Part shown: positions 24,123-36,875 of the stretch, piece by piece
How positions within the stretch are numbered: the stretch's first letter is position 1
Layout: each line of letters starts with the position of its first letter
Assembly: GCA_016867835.1 (NCBI GenBank)
Contig: VGIQ01000011.1
Span: forward strand, 1-36,875
Source of the DNA: Calditrichota bacterium
GTDB taxonomy: Bacteria; Electryoneota; AABM5-125-24; Hatepunaeales; Hatepunaeaceae
Reading direction: 5' to 3'
Length of the DNA: 36,875 nucleotides
The notes under the pieces: generated by a model
Told to the model about the DNA's origin: nothing
Databases searched by the model: none
What the model saw: only the letters and a program-made list of their open reading frames with translations
Made by a program: the position numbers and the translations under genes

Positions 24123-25343
24123 ATGATCGTCCTCATTCTGGTCCTCTTGGGACTGCTTGCCTACGGCGTGCTGGAGTATCGGGGTCATCAACGCCGTCTT
24201 CGAGCAATCCCCCTGCGCATCCACGTCAACGGGACGCGCGGCAAGTCTTCCGTAACCCGCCTGATTGCTGCCGGACTAAGAGCCGGTGGAATCAAGACAA
24301 TGGCCAAGACGACCGGAACCCTGCCGAGGATCATCGATTTCGAGGGTCGGGAAGTTCCCATTGTCCGCGATCAGCGCGCCAACATTATCGAACAAGTCAA
24401 GATTCTCAAATACTTCGAGCGCCGCAAGCCGGAAGCGATGGTGATCGAATGCATGGCCGTGCTGCCGGAGTATCAATACATCTGCGAGAGGCAGATTATA
24501 CGCTCGCACATCGGCGTCATCACCAACGCACGGCTCGACCATATCAATGAGATGGGGAAGTTCCGGGAGCAAATAGCCCGGTCGCTCGCCAACTCGGTGC
24601 CGGCTGGCAAGCCTGCCGGCGGGCCGTTCGTTCTGAAGGGCAAGCCCCTTCCCCCGATCCTCTTCACATCCGAGAAGACCAATTTCAGGGTTCTCAAAGA
24701 AGTAGCCGACTTTCAGGGCGTCGAGGCGCGACGGGTCGGCGGAGGCGGAATTACCGGAGACGAACTGCAGAGATTTGGGCATATCGAGCATCCGGCCAAT
24801 GTCGGGCTGGCGCTTGCAGTCTGCGAATATGTCGGCATCGACCGGCAGACGGCTTTGGAAGGAATGTACCGGTCCGCGCCGGATGCCGGAGCGCTCAAAA
24901 TCGCCCGTTGTCACGAGCGTGGCAAAGACCTTCTCTTCGTCAACGCAATGGCAGCAAATGATCCCGAATCGACGCTTGAAATCTACCACCAGATCGTCGA
25001 GCGGTTCGCGCCGCTCGGGACGTTTATCATCCTGCTCAACTCTCGAGCCGATCGACAGGATCGCAGCATCCAGTTGATTGAGATGTCCGCTGGTAATATC
25101 ACTTTCGACAAAATGATCCTGACCGGGGAGAGTCTGAGCCGGTTTCTCTCCTTTCTCCCCCGATACAACATCCCCCGCGAGAAGGCGTTGGGGCTGGGAT
25201 GGATTGCGCCGGAGAAGGTCTATGACCAACTCTTCGACATGGTTGAGGGAAGTCACGGGACCGTGCTGGCGATCGGCAACGTGGGGGCGGGGGGGCTCGA
25301 TATCTTCAGGCATTTCTACAAGCATAGGAGGCAGGAGGCTTGA
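24123..25343 (+). CDS. capB: Poly-gamma-glutamate synthase subunit CapB/PgsB
   Basis: ATP-dependent amide ligase of the Mur-ligase type that polymerises glutamate through its gamma-carboxyl. 406 residues, similar to known CapB. An N-terminal membrane segment (IVLILVLLGLLAYGVLEY) is followed by the ATP loop HVNGTRGKSSVTRLI at about 34-48, VIECMAVLPEYQY, ITNARLDHINEMG and LLNSRADRQDRS, all characteristic of CapB rather than of MurC-F. The start is ATG 24123, after an in-frame stop, with no strong ribosome site. A 203-base gap with no recognisable gene precedes it. It overlaps capC by 4 bases (TTGA). In known systems CapB works with CapC and CapA at the inner membrane; no capA is present here. 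Confidence 0.92.
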   Translation: MIVLILVLLGLLAYGVLEYRGHQRRLRAIPLRIHVNGTRGKSSVTRLIAAGLRAGGIKTMAKTTGTLPRIIDFEGREVPIVRDQRANIIEQVKILKYFERRKPEAMVIECMAVLPEYQYICERQIIRSHIGVITNARLDHINEMGKFREQIARSLANSVPAGKPAGGPFVLKGKPLPPILFTSEKTNFRVLKEVADFQGVEARRVGGGGITGDELQRFGHIEHPANVGLALAVCEYVGIDRQTALEGMYRSAPDAGALKIARCHERGKDLLFVNAMAANDPESTLEIYHQIVERFAPLGTFIILLNSRADRQDRSIQLIEMSAGNITFDKMILTGESLSRFLSFLPRYNIPREKALGLGWIAPEKVYDQLFDMVEGSHGTVLAIGNVGAGGLDIFRHFYKHRRQEA

Positions 25344-25789
25344 TTGAGATAGCGGTCGGCATCGGGGTAGCCTTCAGCCTACTGTTTCATGAGGTGTTCG
25401 GCCTCGCAGCCGGGGGCATCGTGGTCCCCGGTTATATCGCAATGAATTTTCATCATCCCTGGCGGCTGGCGGGAACGCTCGTCGTAGCTCTTGCCGTCTG
25501 GGGATGCATACGTATCGTCAGCAATTTCGTCTTCGTCTATGGACGACGCCGGATGGTGCTGGCAGTGTTGCTGGGGTTCATTCTCGGCTATATATCGCGG
25601 CAGATGTTCGACGCCGGCGGCGGCGATATCCGGCTGGAGGCAATCGGCTACATCATTCCCGGTCTTATCGCCAACTGGATGGAACGGCAGGGGGTCTATA
25701 AGACGATCACAACAGTCCTGATGGGCGGTGCTGCAGTGCGGATACTGGTGATCCTGGTGACCGGCGGGGAGGTGATCGGAAATGTATAG
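25340..25789 (+). CDS. capC: Poly-gamma-glutamate biosynthesis membrane protein CapC/PgsC
   Basis: 149 residues, the characteristic CapC length, made of several hydrophobic membrane segments. The opening IEIAVGIGVAFSLLFHEVFG with GLAAGGIVVPGYIAM and the segment GDIRLEAIGYIIPGLIANWMERQG are typical of the family, which forms the membrane part of the polymerising complex with CapB. The start is TTG 25340, overlapping the capB stop. It overlaps the next gene by 8 bases, so capB, capC and the downstream gene are tightly coupled. Confidence 0.92.
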   Translation: MIEIAVGIGVAFSLLFHEVFGLAAGGIVVPGYIAMNFHHPWRLAGTLVVALAVWGCIRIVSNFVFVYGRRRMVLAVLLGFILGYISRQMFDAGGGDIRLEAIGYIIPGLIANWMERQGVYKTITTVLMGGAAVRILVILVTGGEVIGNV

Positions 25790-26909
25790 GCCAACCATCA
25801 AATCGAACTTCTGGCTTGGCGCGTTGACGGTCGCGTTTCTGCTCCTCTATTGGTGGGCTGAGAGCAACTTCATTACGGTTAGGTCATCCAACTTTGAGGT
25901 GAAACTGACTGCCGCCCGGACTATGCTAAAGGCAATGGAAGCGCTGCAGTCCTACCGTCTCCCCCACCTTAGCCGTACCGCCGCGCGGGAGATCGCCGAC
26001 CCGCTGGTCTTTACGCTGTTAGGTGAGAAAGACAGCCCTATCACCACCGATGAAGGCCGCATCGACGACAAGATCACAGCCCTCAATCCGAACTTCGCCG
26101 CCGCAATGGTCGATATGATCGCCTCGACCGGCGTTGAAAGAGGAGATACGGTAGCCGTGTTGTTGACCGGTTCTATTCCGGGCGCCAACATTGCGACCTA
26201 CGCCGCTTGCCAGGCGCTGGGCATCGTGCCGGTGGCAATAACGTCGGTTGGGTCATCGTGGTGGGGTGCCAACTCGGCAGACTTCACCTGGCTCGATATG
26301 GAGCGAATCCTGAGCGAAAAGGGTGTTTTCCCCTTTCGTTCGATAGCCGCGTCGCTCGGTGGAGCCGACGACCAGGGCGGACTGCGGCTTTCCGATGCAG
26401 GCAAGGAGATGATCCTCGAAGCGATCCAACGCAATGAAATGACATTGATTCGCGAAGGGAGTTTAGCCTCCAACGTCTCGGCTCGAATCGCGCTTTTTGA
26501 ACGCATCATGCCCTTGAATCGCTACCAGGCGGTGGTCAACATCGGCGGCGGCATTGCGGCAATCGGGCATCGTGAAAACGGGAAGTTGATTCCGTCCGGG
26601 GTGCATCGGTATCTCCCGGCGCGGAATTATCCGTCTCGGGGTGTGATTCACTCTTTCTCCGATCAGAGCGTTCCGGTGGCGCACGTCTATGATGTTGTAG
26701 CGGTGGCGCAATCCTATCATCTTCCGGTCTCGGCATTGCCTTTGCCGCATATTGGCACAGGGGATCTTTTTTCCAGTGAACGCTACAACCTGACCATTGC
26801 AGCCATTGCCGCAGTTACGATGCTGGCGTTACTGGCAGTAGTGAAATACCTCGACCGGCTGCACTACAAATGGCGCGAAGACGGGGTCGATCCCGACACC
26901 TTGGTTTAA
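25782..26909 (+). CDS. pgsW: Poly-gamma-glutamate system protein (PgsW-like)
   Basis: 375 residues. It has an N-terminal membrane segment (about 10-25) and a second one near the C-terminus (about 336-355), with a large soluble domain between. That domain contains ALNPNFAAAMVDMIAS, VAVLLTGSIPGANIATYAA, ITSVGSSWWGANSADFTWLDME and YQAVVNIGGGIAAIGHRENG. I recognise this as the family annotated poly-gamma-glutamate system protein, found beside capBC in Gram-negative bacteria; its biochemical role is not established. The start is ATG 25782 and the stop lies in the first copy of a 12-base tandem repeat. The gene symbol is tentative. Confidence 0.72.
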   Translation: MYRPTIKSNFWLGALTVAFLLLYWWAESNFITVRSSNFEVKLTAARTMLKAMEALQSYRLPHLSRTAAREIADPLVFTLLGEKDSPITTDEGRIDDKITALNPNFAAAMVDMIASTGVERGDTVAVLLTGSIPGANIATYAACQALGIVPVAITSVGSSWWGANSADFTWLDMERILSEKGVFPFRSIAASLGGADDQGGLRLSDAGKEMILEAIQRNEMTLIREGSLASNVSARIALFERIMPLNRYQAVVNIGGGIAAIGHRENGKLIPSGVHRYLPARNYPSRGVIHSFSDQSVPVAHVYDVVAVAQSYHLPVSALPLPHIGTGDLFSSERYNLTIAAIAAVTMLALLAVVKYLDRLHYKWREDGVDPDTLV

Positions 26910-26926
26910 TCTTAGGTTTAATCTTA
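26903..26926 (+). repeat. Perfect 12-base tandem duplication at the pgsW-like stop codon
   Basis: GGTTTAATCTTA occurs twice back to back, at 26903-26914 and 26915-26926, followed by GGGG. The first copy contains the stop codon of the preceding gene, and the GGGG after the second copy could serve as ribosome site for the next gene 11 bases on. The duplication looks like a recent slippage event. Confidence 0.85.
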
Positions 26927-26941
26927 GGGGCCGTTCAATAT

Positions 26942-27913
26942 ATGTCGAAACCTATTATCGGCATCTTGGCGCTGGCTTTCGGCATTTTTGCGACGGCCCG
27001 TTCAGACGCGGCTTGGCTTTCAGTAGCGCCGATCGGTAACGGCCGCAACGCCGAGACGCTCAAGGTGAAAGAGAATTCGCTTTCCTATTGGCGTCTTGGT
27101 GACAAGACTCCGGTTCAGGTCATGGTAACTGGACCGACCTCGCTCAAAGTCATTACCCGGTCGTCGCTGGATAAAAAAAGCAGCCACCGGACCTACGGAT
27201 TGAATGTCAGCCGCGAGGATGGTAAGAAATACCGTCTATCCCGGACCACCCGCTATATCAAGTCGGTTACCAATCCGAAGAATGCGGCTGAACGCATTGG
27301 GGAGAGCCGTTCGATCACATTCAAAGTGCCGGCCGGCGAGCATACCTACACCTTTATCGCTCCCAAGAGCGGCAAGAACACGGTCTATGCCAGGTTCTTC
27401 GTCGCCAACGGGACTGCCAAGAGCCCCGGCGAACCGTTGGTTTCGTTCAAGCCGGTCGGGACACCTGAGGAAGTGGCTATTCTGATCAAGGAAGAAGAGT
27501 ACCACTATTACCGTGCCGGAGGCGGCAACGGGCTGGAACTTGACGTTATCGGACCGACCCGTATCAACGGCCTGGCAAGGCTCGAGTTCGATCATACGAT
27601 GCGCGGCGAAAAGACCTTCCGGGTGCAGGTCAAGGAAGGTGCCCAACTGGTGCAAACGACGCCCTTTAAGAGCAAGCCATCGGCAGCCGCCTCCTACAAG
27701 GAGAAGAGCGTTAAGGTGCTATCGCGAGGTCACTCTTTCAAGATCGACGTCCCAGCCGGCCGGCATCGTTACCATATTTCGACTCCCGATCCCGGGGTGA
27801 CAGTCCTGTTCCGGTTCTACATTCCCCGGAAAAGCCTCGGTAACGAACTGCCGGAAGCGAAGCGCAATGGTTCGGCGCTATTGCAGGGCCTGTTCAAGAC
27901 GAAGGCCGGATGA
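26942..27913 (+). CDS. Exported protein with two homologous beta domains, poly-gamma-glutamate cluster
   Basis: 323 residues, not assigned to a named family. The N-terminus MSKPIIGILALAFGIFATARS with DAAW is a signal peptide. The mature protein contains an internal duplication: residues about 49-154 and 189-294 share the order of YWRLGDKTPVQVMVTGPT versus YYRAGGGNGLELDVIGPT, FKVPAGEHTYTFIAP versus FKIDVPAGRHRYHISTP, and VYARFFV versus VLFRFYI. Both halves look like beta-sandwiches, rich in Lys and Arg, which could suit binding an anionic polymer such as poly-gamma-glutamate (inference). The start is ATG 26942; an upstream in-frame extension lacks a signal peptide at its front. It overlaps the next gene by 4 bases (ATGA), so the two are expected to act together. 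Confidence 0.8.
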   Translation: MSKPIIGILALAFGIFATARSDAAWLSVAPIGNGRNAETLKVKENSLSYWRLGDKTPVQVMVTGPTSLKVITRSSLDKKSSHRTYGLNVSREDGKKYRLSRTTRYIKSVTNPKNAAERIGESRSITFKVPAGEHTYTFIAPKSGKNTVYARFFVANGTAKSPGEPLVSFKPVGTPEEVAILIKEEEYHYYRAGGGNGLELDVIGPTRINGLARLEFDHTMRGEKTFRVQVKEGAQLVQTTPFKSKPSAAASYKEKSVKVLSRGHSFKIDVPAGRHRYHISTPDPGVTVLFRFYIPRKSLGNELPEAKRNGSALLQGLFKTKAG

Positions 27914-28974
27914 TTTTTCGCTCAGTTGCAATTGCGACTCTAATTGCGGCTTCGGGCGCTGGTGCAATGCCACTGGGACCAGGAAGTGTGACGTTCGGCG
28001 CCGATTTGAAGCTGACCTACGACAGCAACCTGTTGCACTATTCGGATCGTGACTTCGACCGTTTCCTTGACGGCACCGAACCCTATCCTTCGACTTCTAT
28101 CCGCAGCCTGGATGACTTGCGCACAGACTTTAAGATGAGTGCCGAATACCGTATCGACTGGGCGCGGCGTCGTACGACGCGGCTGCGGCTAACCGGCAAT
28201 TTCGGCGCACACTACAGCAACCCGGTGAAGAACCTCGGTTGGGCAAGTTTCAACCTGCGGCAGGATATCGCTGCCATGCTGTTTGCTCAGGCAGGTTACT
28301 TCTACGAACCGCGCTACTACATTCGCGACTACCTCGACAGCCATACCGACTCTCGCCGGCGGTGTGATTTCGCGCTTTCGCAGTGGACCGGTTCGCTCAC
28401 CTGGCGTCCAATGTGGAGCTATGAACTGACGGGCACACTTCGGGTCAAGGATTATGAATACAACCGCTATTTCACTGAATATGACGGCCGGGTGATCGAG
28501 AGTGGGTTGGGAGGGGTCTGGCGTCAAGGTGACTGGCGGTTTGAGACGGGTTACTCCTTTGCCGTTCATAACAACACCGGATTCAGCCGGGGCGACCGAC
28601 TGCCCGAAGTGATCGAAAGTGAGGACTCAGAACTCGGCAACGCCGACTTCGAGGAGGATGGCTGGAACGTCTCGATGCGGCGCAGCCTGTTGATCTTTGC
28701 GTATGAAGGCGCATTGGAACTTGCAACCGATGTAGCGAGACGCGTCTATACGACTGACCGGTCCTCCTTCATCGACCCGATCCACTCGGAGCGAATAGAC
28801 CGGATGGGGACAGTCTCTCTCGTCGGAACGCTTGATTATAGTCCGGAAGTGAACCTTGAAGCCGGACTCGGCCGGCAGTGGCGAAGCACCGAAGCCAACG
28901 ACGAGCAAGCATCGCGCATCAAGAGTTTCGGAAGGTGGACGGTTTGGGCTGGTATAGGATATCGATTTGAGTAA
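27910..28974 (+). CDS. Outer-membrane beta-barrel protein, poly-gamma-glutamate cluster
   Basis: 354 residues. A signal peptide (IFRSVAIATLIAASGAGAM) is followed by alternating hydrophobic and polar strands with many aromatic residues, as in outer-membrane barrels: VTFGADLKLTYDSNLLHYS, RLRLTGNFGAHYSN, AQAGYFYEPRYYIRDY, WSYELTGTLRVKDYEYNRYF and the last strand WTVWAGIGYRFE. The aromatic residue near the C-terminus fits the BAM targeting signal. Its placement after capB-capC-pgsW and the exported repeat protein suggests it forms or gates the outer-membrane exit for poly-gamma-glutamate, or tethers the polymer to the surface. This is inference from context; no close functional relative is recognised. 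Confidence 0.8.
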   Translation: MIFRSVAIATLIAASGAGAMPLGPGSVTFGADLKLTYDSNLLHYSDRDFDRFLDGTEPYPSTSIRSLDDLRTDFKMSAEYRIDWARRRTTRLRLTGNFGAHYSNPVKNLGWASFNLRQDIAAMLFAQAGYFYEPRYYIRDYLDSHTDSRRRCDFALSQWTGSLTWRPMWSYELTGTLRVKDYEYNRYFTEYDGRVIESGLGGVWRQGDWRFETGYSFAVHNNTGFSRGDRLPEVIESEDSELGNADFEEDGWNVSMRRSLLIFAYEGALELATDVARRVYTTDRSSFIDPIHSERIDRMGTVSLVGTLDYSPEVNLEAGLGRQWRSTEANDEQASRIKSFGRWTVWAGIGYRFE

Positions 28975-35296: not shown

Positions 35297-36205
35297 TCAG
35301 AACCACCCGGTGGCATCGACGTAGCGTGATTGGACTCCGCTGAAATAGATGTCGATGGCGGGACCGTTGCCGTGTCCGGTGGAGTTCGGGACGATAGCGA
35401 CCGCTCCGGTGTCGGAAATGCTGTTTCCGAGCAGAAGGATGCCATTGCCGAGGGTGCGCAGCAGCCCGTTAAAGTCGATCGTCTTCCCCGACCGGCCCAG
35501 GATGACAGTGGAGGTGACGGAATCTCCTCCGATCTTCAAATCCTGGGGACTGACTGCTGTCCCCCCGGAGTTGATTTTCCCGGCTGATGATGTGCTACCG
35601 ACGAAGAGGTCGCCCTGGATGCCAAGATTGGCATCGTTGATGACGTCTTGGCCTGATCGCCCTATCTTTACACCGGCGGTTTGAATTCCAGTTCCGATGT
35701 GCAGAGCTTTGGCCGCGACACCGGTCCCACCGGAATCGATCTTGCCGACATTGTCGGATGGACCAACTGACAAGGTGCCGCTCGCACCGAGGAGGTTGGT
35801 TTTTATCACGACTTTGTAGCCCGATCGACCGATTTCCACATCCGATGTGGAAATGTCAGATCCGATTTTGAGACTCTGTCCGTTCGGATCGCCATTAGCG
35901 TCGATCATTCCGGATCCTTGGAAATTGCCGATCCGAACTTCCTCGATGATCCGCATGTCGCCTTCGACGGTAGTTCGATGATTCAGCTGCCCGATGGAAA
36001 CTTGCGCAGAATCTCCGCCCATACTGAGGGTTCCATTCGTTCCTGCGTTGATTGATCCAAGAAACTCGGACTTTCCCCGCACCTTCAACGCCCGAGCATC
36101 GTCATTGATGCTTGAGTTGATGAACTCCGCGGCGATCGAAGCATTATCGTTGACATTCACATCATCGACACGCAGTATCCGATGATTGACCTCTCCAGAG
36201 ATCAT
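35297..36205 (-). CDS. Repetitive beta-structured protein, phage tail-like or surface protein; possibly disrupted at its 5' end
   Basis: 302 residues from ATG 36205. Composition is rich in Gly, Ser, Thr, Asn and Asp. Three related units of about 55 residues contain LKIGSDISTSDVEIGRSG, LHIGTGIQTAGVKIGRSG and LKIGGDSVTSTVILGRSG, each followed by a VGKIDSGGTG- or AGKINSGGTA-like turn, as in beta-helical fibres or phage tail tip and surface proteins. No enzyme motif is seen. The frame upstream of 36205 is open to a TAG at 36239-36241, two codons after an ATG at 36245-36247 that has a perfect AAAGGAG (36254-36260) six bases before it. The likely ancestral start therefore carries an amber codon at codon 3, making this copy doubtful or re-initiated at 36205. 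Confidence 0.65.
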   Translation of the reverse strand: MISGEVNHRILRVDDVNVNDNASIAAEFINSSINDDARALKVRGKSEFLGSINAGTNGTLSMGGDSAQVSIGQLNHRTTVEGDMRIIEEVRIGNFQGSGMIDANGDPNGQSLKIGSDISTSDVEIGRSGYKVVIKTNLLGASGTLSVGPSDNVGKIDSGGTGVAAKALHIGTGIQTAGVKIGRSGQDVINDANLGIQGDLFVGSTSSAGKINSGGTAVSPQDLKIGGDSVTSTVILGRSGKTIDFNGLLRTLGNGILLLGNSISDTGAVAIVPNSTGHGNGPAIDIYFSGVQSRYVDATGWF

Positions 36206-36253
36206 ATCCTGATCTCTTGTTGAGTCATCTGCATTTCCCTAAGCCATGATTGG

Positions 36254-36260
36254 CTCCTTT
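36254..36260 (-). promoter_or_regulatory. Strong ribosome binding site ahead of a start followed by an amber codon
   Basis: On the - strand AAAGGAG stands six bases before ATG 36245-36247 (ATG GCT TAG). This is the best Shine-Dalgarno match in the region and points to the original start of the repeat-protein gene, 14 codons before ATG 36205 and in the same frame. Confidence 0.6.
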
Positions 36261-36288
36261 GTTAGGGATGTGGTTACGGTGATGAACA

Positions 36289-36875
36289 TTAGTAGGCATA
36301 GGGGCCGCCGTAAACCCCTATGTCAGATCGTGTGCCGTCCGGATCTTGGAGATCCGGGCGCCCTTCATCGACTCCGCGTGAATTGGCGCGTAGTCGGTAA
36401 GATCCCTCTTCGAATGCAGGCTCCACATTCATCAAATTATTCTCGCCCCATCCCGCATTCACCCAGATCCTTCCAGCATTCCAGAGAAGATTGTAATCGG
36501 GAACAAGTAGTTGGCCGTTTATAGCCCGATTAAAAACTGCCCAATCGGATATATTCATAATGATATTGTTGCTCAAGTCACCCCAAGAATGTGCTATTTC
36601 AGGACCATCTCTTAAATTCATGAATAAATTATTTCTTATCAAGGCGTTGTTTTGACCAATAGTCAATCCTCTTTGCTCTTCTCCTGAAGAACCCTGAAAG
36701 ATGCAGTTGACAATACGTGGACTGGCTCCCCCACAAGCAAGCCCATAACATACGAAATCTGATGTGTTCCTAAAGGTCAGTCCCCTTACGAGCATCGTGG
36801 TATCCTGCCCGCCTGTGATCCATGCGGCCGTATAATAGCCAGTTCCATCGAGGATCGTCTCCTCCGGTCCCGACT
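36289..36875 (-). CDS. Right-handed parallel beta-helix protein (5' part beyond the window edge)
   Basis: About 195 residues are visible; the frame is open through the right edge, so the N-terminus is missing. The visible sequence begins GPEETILDGTGYYTAAWITG, runs through LVRGLTFRNTSDFV, CGGASPRIVNCIFQGSS, ALIRNNLFMNL and LSNNIIMNISDWAVFN, and ends with DPDGTRSDIGVYGGPYAY. These stacked asparagine-ladder repeats and the final DPDGTRxDxGxYGGP phrase are typical of secreted pectate-lyase-like or choice-of-anchor beta-helix proteins. The DNA is markedly A+T-rich (40 G+C in the 120 bases 36541-36660) compared with the genes to the left, suggesting transfer. It lies upstream of the repeat-protein gene in the same direction, so the two may be one transcript. 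Substrate unknown. Confidence 0.8.
   Translation of the reverse strand, partial: SGPEETILDGTGYYTAAWITGGQDTTMLVRGLTFRNTSDFVCYGLACGGASPRIVNCIFQGSSGEEQRGLTIGQNNALIRNNLFMNLRDGPEIAHSWGDLSNNIIMNISDWAVFNRAINGQLLVPDYNLLWNAGRIWVNAGWGENNLMNVEPAFEEGSYRLRANSRGVDEGRPDLQDPDGTRSDIGVYGGPYAY

Follow-up and report, generated by a model that had tools for sequence, protein, structure and literature searches.

In a 36,875-nucleotide stretch of a 2.9-Mb Calditrichota genome (assembly GCA_016867835.1, contig VGIQ01000011.1, positions 1 to 36,875; the whole stretch is called the window here), five adjacent genes, pgsB-pgsC-pgsW-EXP4-BAR5, are proposed to act as one functional cassette that makes poly-γ-glutamate (γ-PGA) and moves the polymer across a two-membrane envelope, a reading to which we assign a probability of roughly 0.6. 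EXP4 and BAR5 denote an exported protein and an outer-membrane β-barrel, which most likely carry γ-PGA across the periplasm and the outer membrane. Their presence alongside the synthase genes in about 130 genomes, drawn from two phyla, makes them the strongest candidates so far for PGA export in two-membrane (diderm) bacteria. To our knowledge, no outer-membrane step for γ-PGA has been described in any such bacterium. We consider the chances about even that the cassette represents an unrecognised and dedicated trans-envelope γ-PGA secretion route of diderms, forming a unit in Calditrichota and Cloacimonadota, with new families of periplasmic carrier and barrel and with a conserved outer rim on the barrel that gates or processes the chain.

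The cassette and its synthase genes

The five genes are arranged in the window as follows.

pgsB (capB), 24123..25343, plus strand: poly-γ-glutamate synthase, a Mur-ligase-like amide ligase with an N-terminal membrane segment; TIGR04012 at 381.7 bits (cut-off 222.7) and PF08245
pgsC (capC), 25340..25789, plus strand: multi-spanning inner-membrane partner of PgsB; TIGR04011 at 117.1 bits (cut-off 96.45) and PF14102 at 118.7 bits, above cut-off
pgsW, 25782..26909, plus strand: poly-γ-glutamate system protein; TIGR04332 at 267.3 bits (cut-off 100)
EXP4, 26942..27913, plus strand: protein with a signal peptide and a predicted two-domain β-sandwich fold; candidate periplasmic polymer-binding or hand-over protein
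BAR5, 27910..28974, plus strand: predicted 14-strand outer-membrane β-barrel; candidate exporter or surface-acting protein

Reading frames overlap by 4 bases at pgsB/pgsC, 8 bases at pgsC/pgsW and 4 bases at EXP4/BAR5, and the ATG of EXP4 at 26942 lies 32 bases past the pgsW stop. The list of open reading frames starts EXP4 at ATG 26870, which would place an arginine-rich stretch ahead of the signal peptide; the start is most likely ATG 26942, since the signal peptide begins there. With the start so corrected, the tight coupling of capB, capC and a PgsW-like gene to an exported protein and a barrel, as described in an earlier note made from this DNA alone, was confirmed, and the three gene identities proposed in that note were borne out by scores above the NCBIfam cut-offs. 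Promoter and terminator scans revealed nothing bearing on an operon.

The products of pgsB and pgsC, both above their curated cut-offs and encoded by adjacent, overlapping genes, correspond to a PgsBC-type synthase pair, and the TIGR04332 gene directly after pgsC makes this a pgsBCW-type locus, PgsW being the constant third gene of the cassette. The P-loop G(T/S)RGKSSVTR is kept among the PgsB proteins of the compared loci, and PgsC has four hydrophobic segments. PgsW has a C-terminal hydrophobic segment at residues 335-358 and an N-terminal segment judged by eye, and we infer that it is a periplasmic domain anchored by membrane segments at both ends. Sequence searches returned no solved relative of PgsW and a literature search on this protein found nothing relevant.

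A second TIGR04332 paralogue was observed in seven of the nine genomes of the window's family (L038:7075-7977, equal to G000:C1:51080-51955, and six relatives), where it adjoins a gene for a DUF4139-like protein and, in others, one for a metallo-β-lactamase. As this paralogue has no CapC nearby, TIGR04332 does not by itself mark a PGA locus. Separately, pgsW of one genome (G007:C93; L036:7395-8427) is broken into two overlapping frames, which reflects either a genuine frameshift or a fault in the assembly.

Co-inheritance in two phyla and the missing PgsA

The phylum of the window was sampled with 39 Calditrichota genomes, CapC being scored as PF14102. CapC, EXP4 and BAR5 occurred in the same 37 genomes and were all missing from the other two (G030 and G036). 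Of these 37 genomes, 35 have EXP4 and 34 have BAR5 on the capC strand, no more than 5 kb downstream of that gene; the exceptions (G001, G015 and G032) each have a cassette gene truncated at a contig end. The longer run folD-PD40-pgsB-C-W-EXP4-BAR5-cdsZ-recJ is kept, contigs permitting, in all nine members of the window's family.

With BAR5 as query against the contigs of named genomes, 36 loci were recovered from Cloacimonadota and from Calditrichota (LCP-89 and Electryonea genomes among them), and the five-gene order was the same in nearly all; in L070 and L080 the EXP4 slot is occupied by a divergent copy that the first profile missed, and L081 is without EXP4. Among 125 Cloacimonadota genomes, BAR5 was present in 106, CapC above cut-off in 105 and both in 100 (Fisher p 3e-10, a descriptive value as the genomes are related). 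In 93 of these 100 the two genes share a strand, with the start of BAR5 1.6-3.7 kb downstream of capC (median 2.57 kb). In most of the discordant genomes that were inspected, the cassette runs off a contig end; BAR5 without CapC was seen in six, every time near a contig end, and G107 carries a short single-domain EXP4-like reading frame after pgsW, also near a contig end. The flanking genes change between the two phyla while the five genes remain together.

That the arrangement recurs in two phyla and in every one of the family's nine genomes indicates that it is not due to chance, and chance neighbourhood was rejected on the grounds that the five genes stay together across phyla and are matched in presence in Cloacimonadota. 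The recurrent association with capBC that the earlier note had proposed as a check was found across the 39 and 125 genomes; neither protein was broadly distributed without capBC, BAR5 occurring alone in the six Cloacimonadota genomes and extra EXP4 copies in only two of the 37 Calditrichota genomes (G006 and G017).

PgsA/CapA (PF09587) was absent from the window, as the earlier note had stated, and from the cassette at every locus examined, so that none of these is a classical pgsBCA/capBCA locus. The sole PF09587 copy of the window's genome lies on another contig (L045:6760-9831, G000:C101), in a 1023-residue secreted protein with PKD domains. Most copies reside in open frames of about 1000 codons that are common in both phyla, with PKD domains in the copy scanned. 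The domain was present in 36 of the 39 Calditrichota and 96 of the 125 Cloacimonadota genomes; capC occurred without any PF09587 match in at least 19 genomes (G005, G014, G024 and at least 16 Cloacimonadota), and PF09587 without capC in G030 and G036. Its distribution does not track the cassette, an overall pattern that is not weakened by genome incompleteness in the way that single absences are. Among the matches listed, PF09587 came within 10 kb of capC only in two Cloacimonadota genomes (G051 and G054), about 4 kb past BAR5, and a conserved cluster of pgsA with capBC, raised in the earlier note as a possible objection, was thus not seen. A hidden pgsA in a conserved cluster elsewhere was likewise rejected, as PF09587 is mostly found in the protein of about 1000 residues with its unrelated distribution.

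The cassette shares PgsB and PgsC, a membrane synthesis complex and the order of the first two genes with the Bacillus pgsBCA(E)/capBCADE loci. It differs from them in having PgsW, with no PgsA/CapA, PgsE or CapD seen, and in its two additional envelope proteins, one periplasmic and one an outer-membrane barrel, for which a cell with a single membrane would have no need. Near-universal capB and PGA synthesis in Cloacimonadota have already been published, and in enrichment culture a DAPI-stained matrix was attributed to PGA (PMC13082233 and PMC8542988, the staining in the former). CapB and CapC in Cloacimonadota and a proposed PGA matrix are common to that work and ours; PMC13082233 gives three genes, CapB, CapC and CapA, whereas the third gene here belongs to TIGR04332 and not PF09587 and is followed by two more. 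We found no description of EXP4 or BAR5 in the literature searched, and a search for Calditrichota with PGA returned nothing relevant.

Predicted structures of EXP4 and BAR5

An AlphaFold2 model of EXP4 built from 30 sequences (pLDDT 89.7) contains two β-sandwich domains, and the two halves of the protein are homologous to each other (HHalign 99.1%, E 4e-19). The best folds in the Protein Data Bank (PDB) include tandem CBM22 and CBM51 modules; since the whole-chain TM scores are low (0.2-0.3), only the domain class is supported. EXP4 is accordingly predicted to consist of two homologous β-sandwich domains of the carbohydrate-binding-module fold, the likeness being one of fold, with no Pfam CBM family above cut-off. 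The window protein had no Pfam or NCBIfam match, its family none above cut-off, and no solved structure was found by sequence search. The periplasmic protein with two basic β domains described in the earlier note was upheld in its two domains by the predicted fold; its basic character holds in the window (isoelectric point, pI, of 10.1, and of 10.4 and 9.6 for the domains) and not across the family, in which 7 of 32 members have a pI below 7. Strong positive charge was for this reason rejected as the working principle of EXP4.

For BAR5, an AlphaFold2 model from 32 sequences (pLDDT 90.9, pTM 0.84) has 14 membrane strands, with outer loops of 30/7/6/8/24/15/11 residues alternating with turns of 3/4/2/2/2/4, as in outer-membrane proteins. 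An even strand number, a closed barrel, long outer loops with short turns and a signal peptide together allow a confident prediction of a 14-strand outer-membrane β-barrel, and the models of both proteins, each predicted singly, agree with the earlier descriptions of a barrel and an exported protein. PDB fold matches of BAR5 comprise CymA, OmpG, chitoporins and other porins or channels, and also AlgE, PelBC and a polysaccharide secretin. Neither a Pfam or NCBIfam match to the window protein nor, by sequence search, a solved structure was found.

Weak matches to EpsL (TIGR03014) and BBP2_2 (PF10082) appeared in 3 of 32 BAR5 relatives (E about 5e-4), the window protein not among them; none is above cut-off, and BAR5 may be faintly related to the exopolysaccharide protein EpsL. 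These two families, the nearest to BAR5, are outer-membrane barrels within polymer-synthesis loci for exopolysaccharides, but the polymer here would be a polypeptide and not a sugar, and BAR5 has invariant loop motifs of its own. With AlgE, PelBC and PgaA-type exporters the cassette would share a barrel and a periplasmic partner for moving a polymer outward; BAR5, by contrast, has 14 strands, against 18 in AlgE and 16 in PgaA-type proteins, the cassette lacks a TPR scaffold, and there is no sequence relation.

With both termini of BAR5 assumed to be periplasmic, mean conservation was 2.24 bits in the outer loops, 1.81 in the strands and 1.39 in the inner turns, and 24 of the 25 most conserved positions lay in outer loops or outer half-strands; the difference between outer and inner sides was reached by 7 of 328 circular shifts of the labels. 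The top positions are N40, D68, D69, Y184-D192 (YNxYFTEYD), D289, H292, R295, R325 and K338, and the invariant set includes FTEYD (188-192) as well as D68, D69, D289, H292, R295, R325 and K338. Loops are usually the most variable part of a barrel. Such conservation on the outer side is unusual for a porin and suggests a gate, a site of binding or a rim with catalytic activity.

Proposed export route and alternative explanations

In the route that we propose, PgsB and PgsC would polymerise glutamate at the inner membrane and pass the chain to the periplasm, as is established for PgsBC elsewhere. PgsW, anchored in the inner membrane, may stand in for PgsA, as suggested by the consistent absence of the latter from the cassette. 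EXP4, as a soluble periplasmic protein of the predicted fold, could hold or guide the emerging chain, and BAR5 could let it out, a CymA/OmpG-like fold being wide enough for an extended thin polymer; the conserved outer loops would then form a gate or selective mouth for the leaving chain. The dedicated Gram-negative route put forward in the earlier note thus gained support from co-inheritance and lost the basic domains as a family trait, while we infer its outward direction. If true, it would provide named, testable proteins for the outer-membrane step of γ-PGA and account for PGA matrices in two widespread anaerobic phyla, including those proposed to bind syntrophic partners in digesters. It would also suggest that a large natural group can do without PgsA, and the cassette would offer parts for γ-PGA release from laboratory diderm hosts.

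Several observations weigh against this proposal. Co-inheritance alone does not distinguish export from import, processing or anchoring. BAR5 is mostly acidic (pI below 7 in 28 of 35), an unexpected trait in a channel for a polyanion, although the pI of the whole protein need not reflect its lumen charge. In at least one genome, G044, pgsBCW and BAR5 are truly unlinked. In a third phylum, that of G047, BAR5 was found in only two of nine genomes, alone beside lgt and udk (L171:7381-8496, L170:7487-8572), and G047 has an orphan pgsC elsewhere in the genome, between clpX and ssb. The second EXP4 copies of G006 and G017, two distant genomes (L177:5510-6475, L178:4698-5714), lie in amino-acid racemase clusters without pgsBC. 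Both clusters encode an Orr-like racemase, a sodium-solute symporter and an M20 amidohydrolase, to which G006 adds alanine racemase, argB and argD-type genes and G017 a DUF1611/DgcN-like protein, below its cut-off; this context hints at glutamate-family or D-amino-acid chemistry and proves nothing. Lastly, a Cetobacterium plasmid (Fusobacteriota) carries pgsBCW without PgsA, EXP4 or BAR5. It resembles our locus in core order, lack of an adjoining PgsA and diderm host, and differs in its neighbours (ggt, DUF6305, TRAP permease and succinylglutamate desuccinylase). EXP4 and BAR5 are therefore not required in every diderm; PgsW is part of the core, and EXP4-BAR5 seem to have been added in the Calditrichota/Cloacimonadota group.

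The most serious alternative, which we regard as unlikely, is that BAR5 does not conduct the polymer and instead works on it at the cell surface, as an enzyme or anchor whose invariant acidic, His, Arg and Tyr residues, located in the outer loops, would cleave, trim or attach the chain, much as omptins and PagP have their active sites on the barrel rim. The outer position of nearly all its top conserved residues would suit such a role, as would the neighbourhood of the cassette, in which neither a hydrolase gene nor a CapD-like gene was seen; yet no known barrel-enzyme relative appeared in the best 50 PDB fold matches or in sequence searches, the best folds are channels, and the conserved loops fit a gate equally well.

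It is still less probable that the polymer is kept in the periplasm or re-imported, with EXP4 binding γ-PGA as a store or osmolyte and BAR5 serving as a porin for its pieces. The closest solved barrels, CymA, OmpG and chitoporins, are indeed uptake channels and the clusters around the second EXP4 copies resemble amino-acid use, but gene order and overlaps bind the barrel to the synthase, the cassette has neither transporter nor hydrolase, and an extracellular PGA-like matrix in Cloacimonadota is on record in PMC13082233.

More doubtful again is the view that the PgsBC homologues produce some other amide polymer or attach a tag to a component of the envelope, with EXP4 and BAR5 serving that product. 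PgsB is known from sequence only, no report of purified product from these organisms was found, and the published staining is indirect; PgsB and PgsC, on the other hand, exceed the NCBI equivalog cut-offs. That EXP4 and BAR5 are ordinary neighbours held by general synteny is very improbable, for although the entire folD-recJ block is syntenic within the window's family, the flanks differ between phyla while the five genes remain, and presence and absence are matched over 164 genomes.

In the window, the cassette is preceded by folD and a gene for a TolB-like PD40 lipoprotein and followed by tRNA-Met, a gene for a CdsZ-like zinc-ribbon protein and recJ. At 26905-26928, spanning the end of pgsW and the gap ahead of EXP4, a 12-base unit (TTTAATCTTAGG) occurs in tandem. 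At the end of the window (35297-36795, minus strand), repetitive proteins are encoded, namely a tail-fibre-like repeat protein and a β-helix-like fragment.

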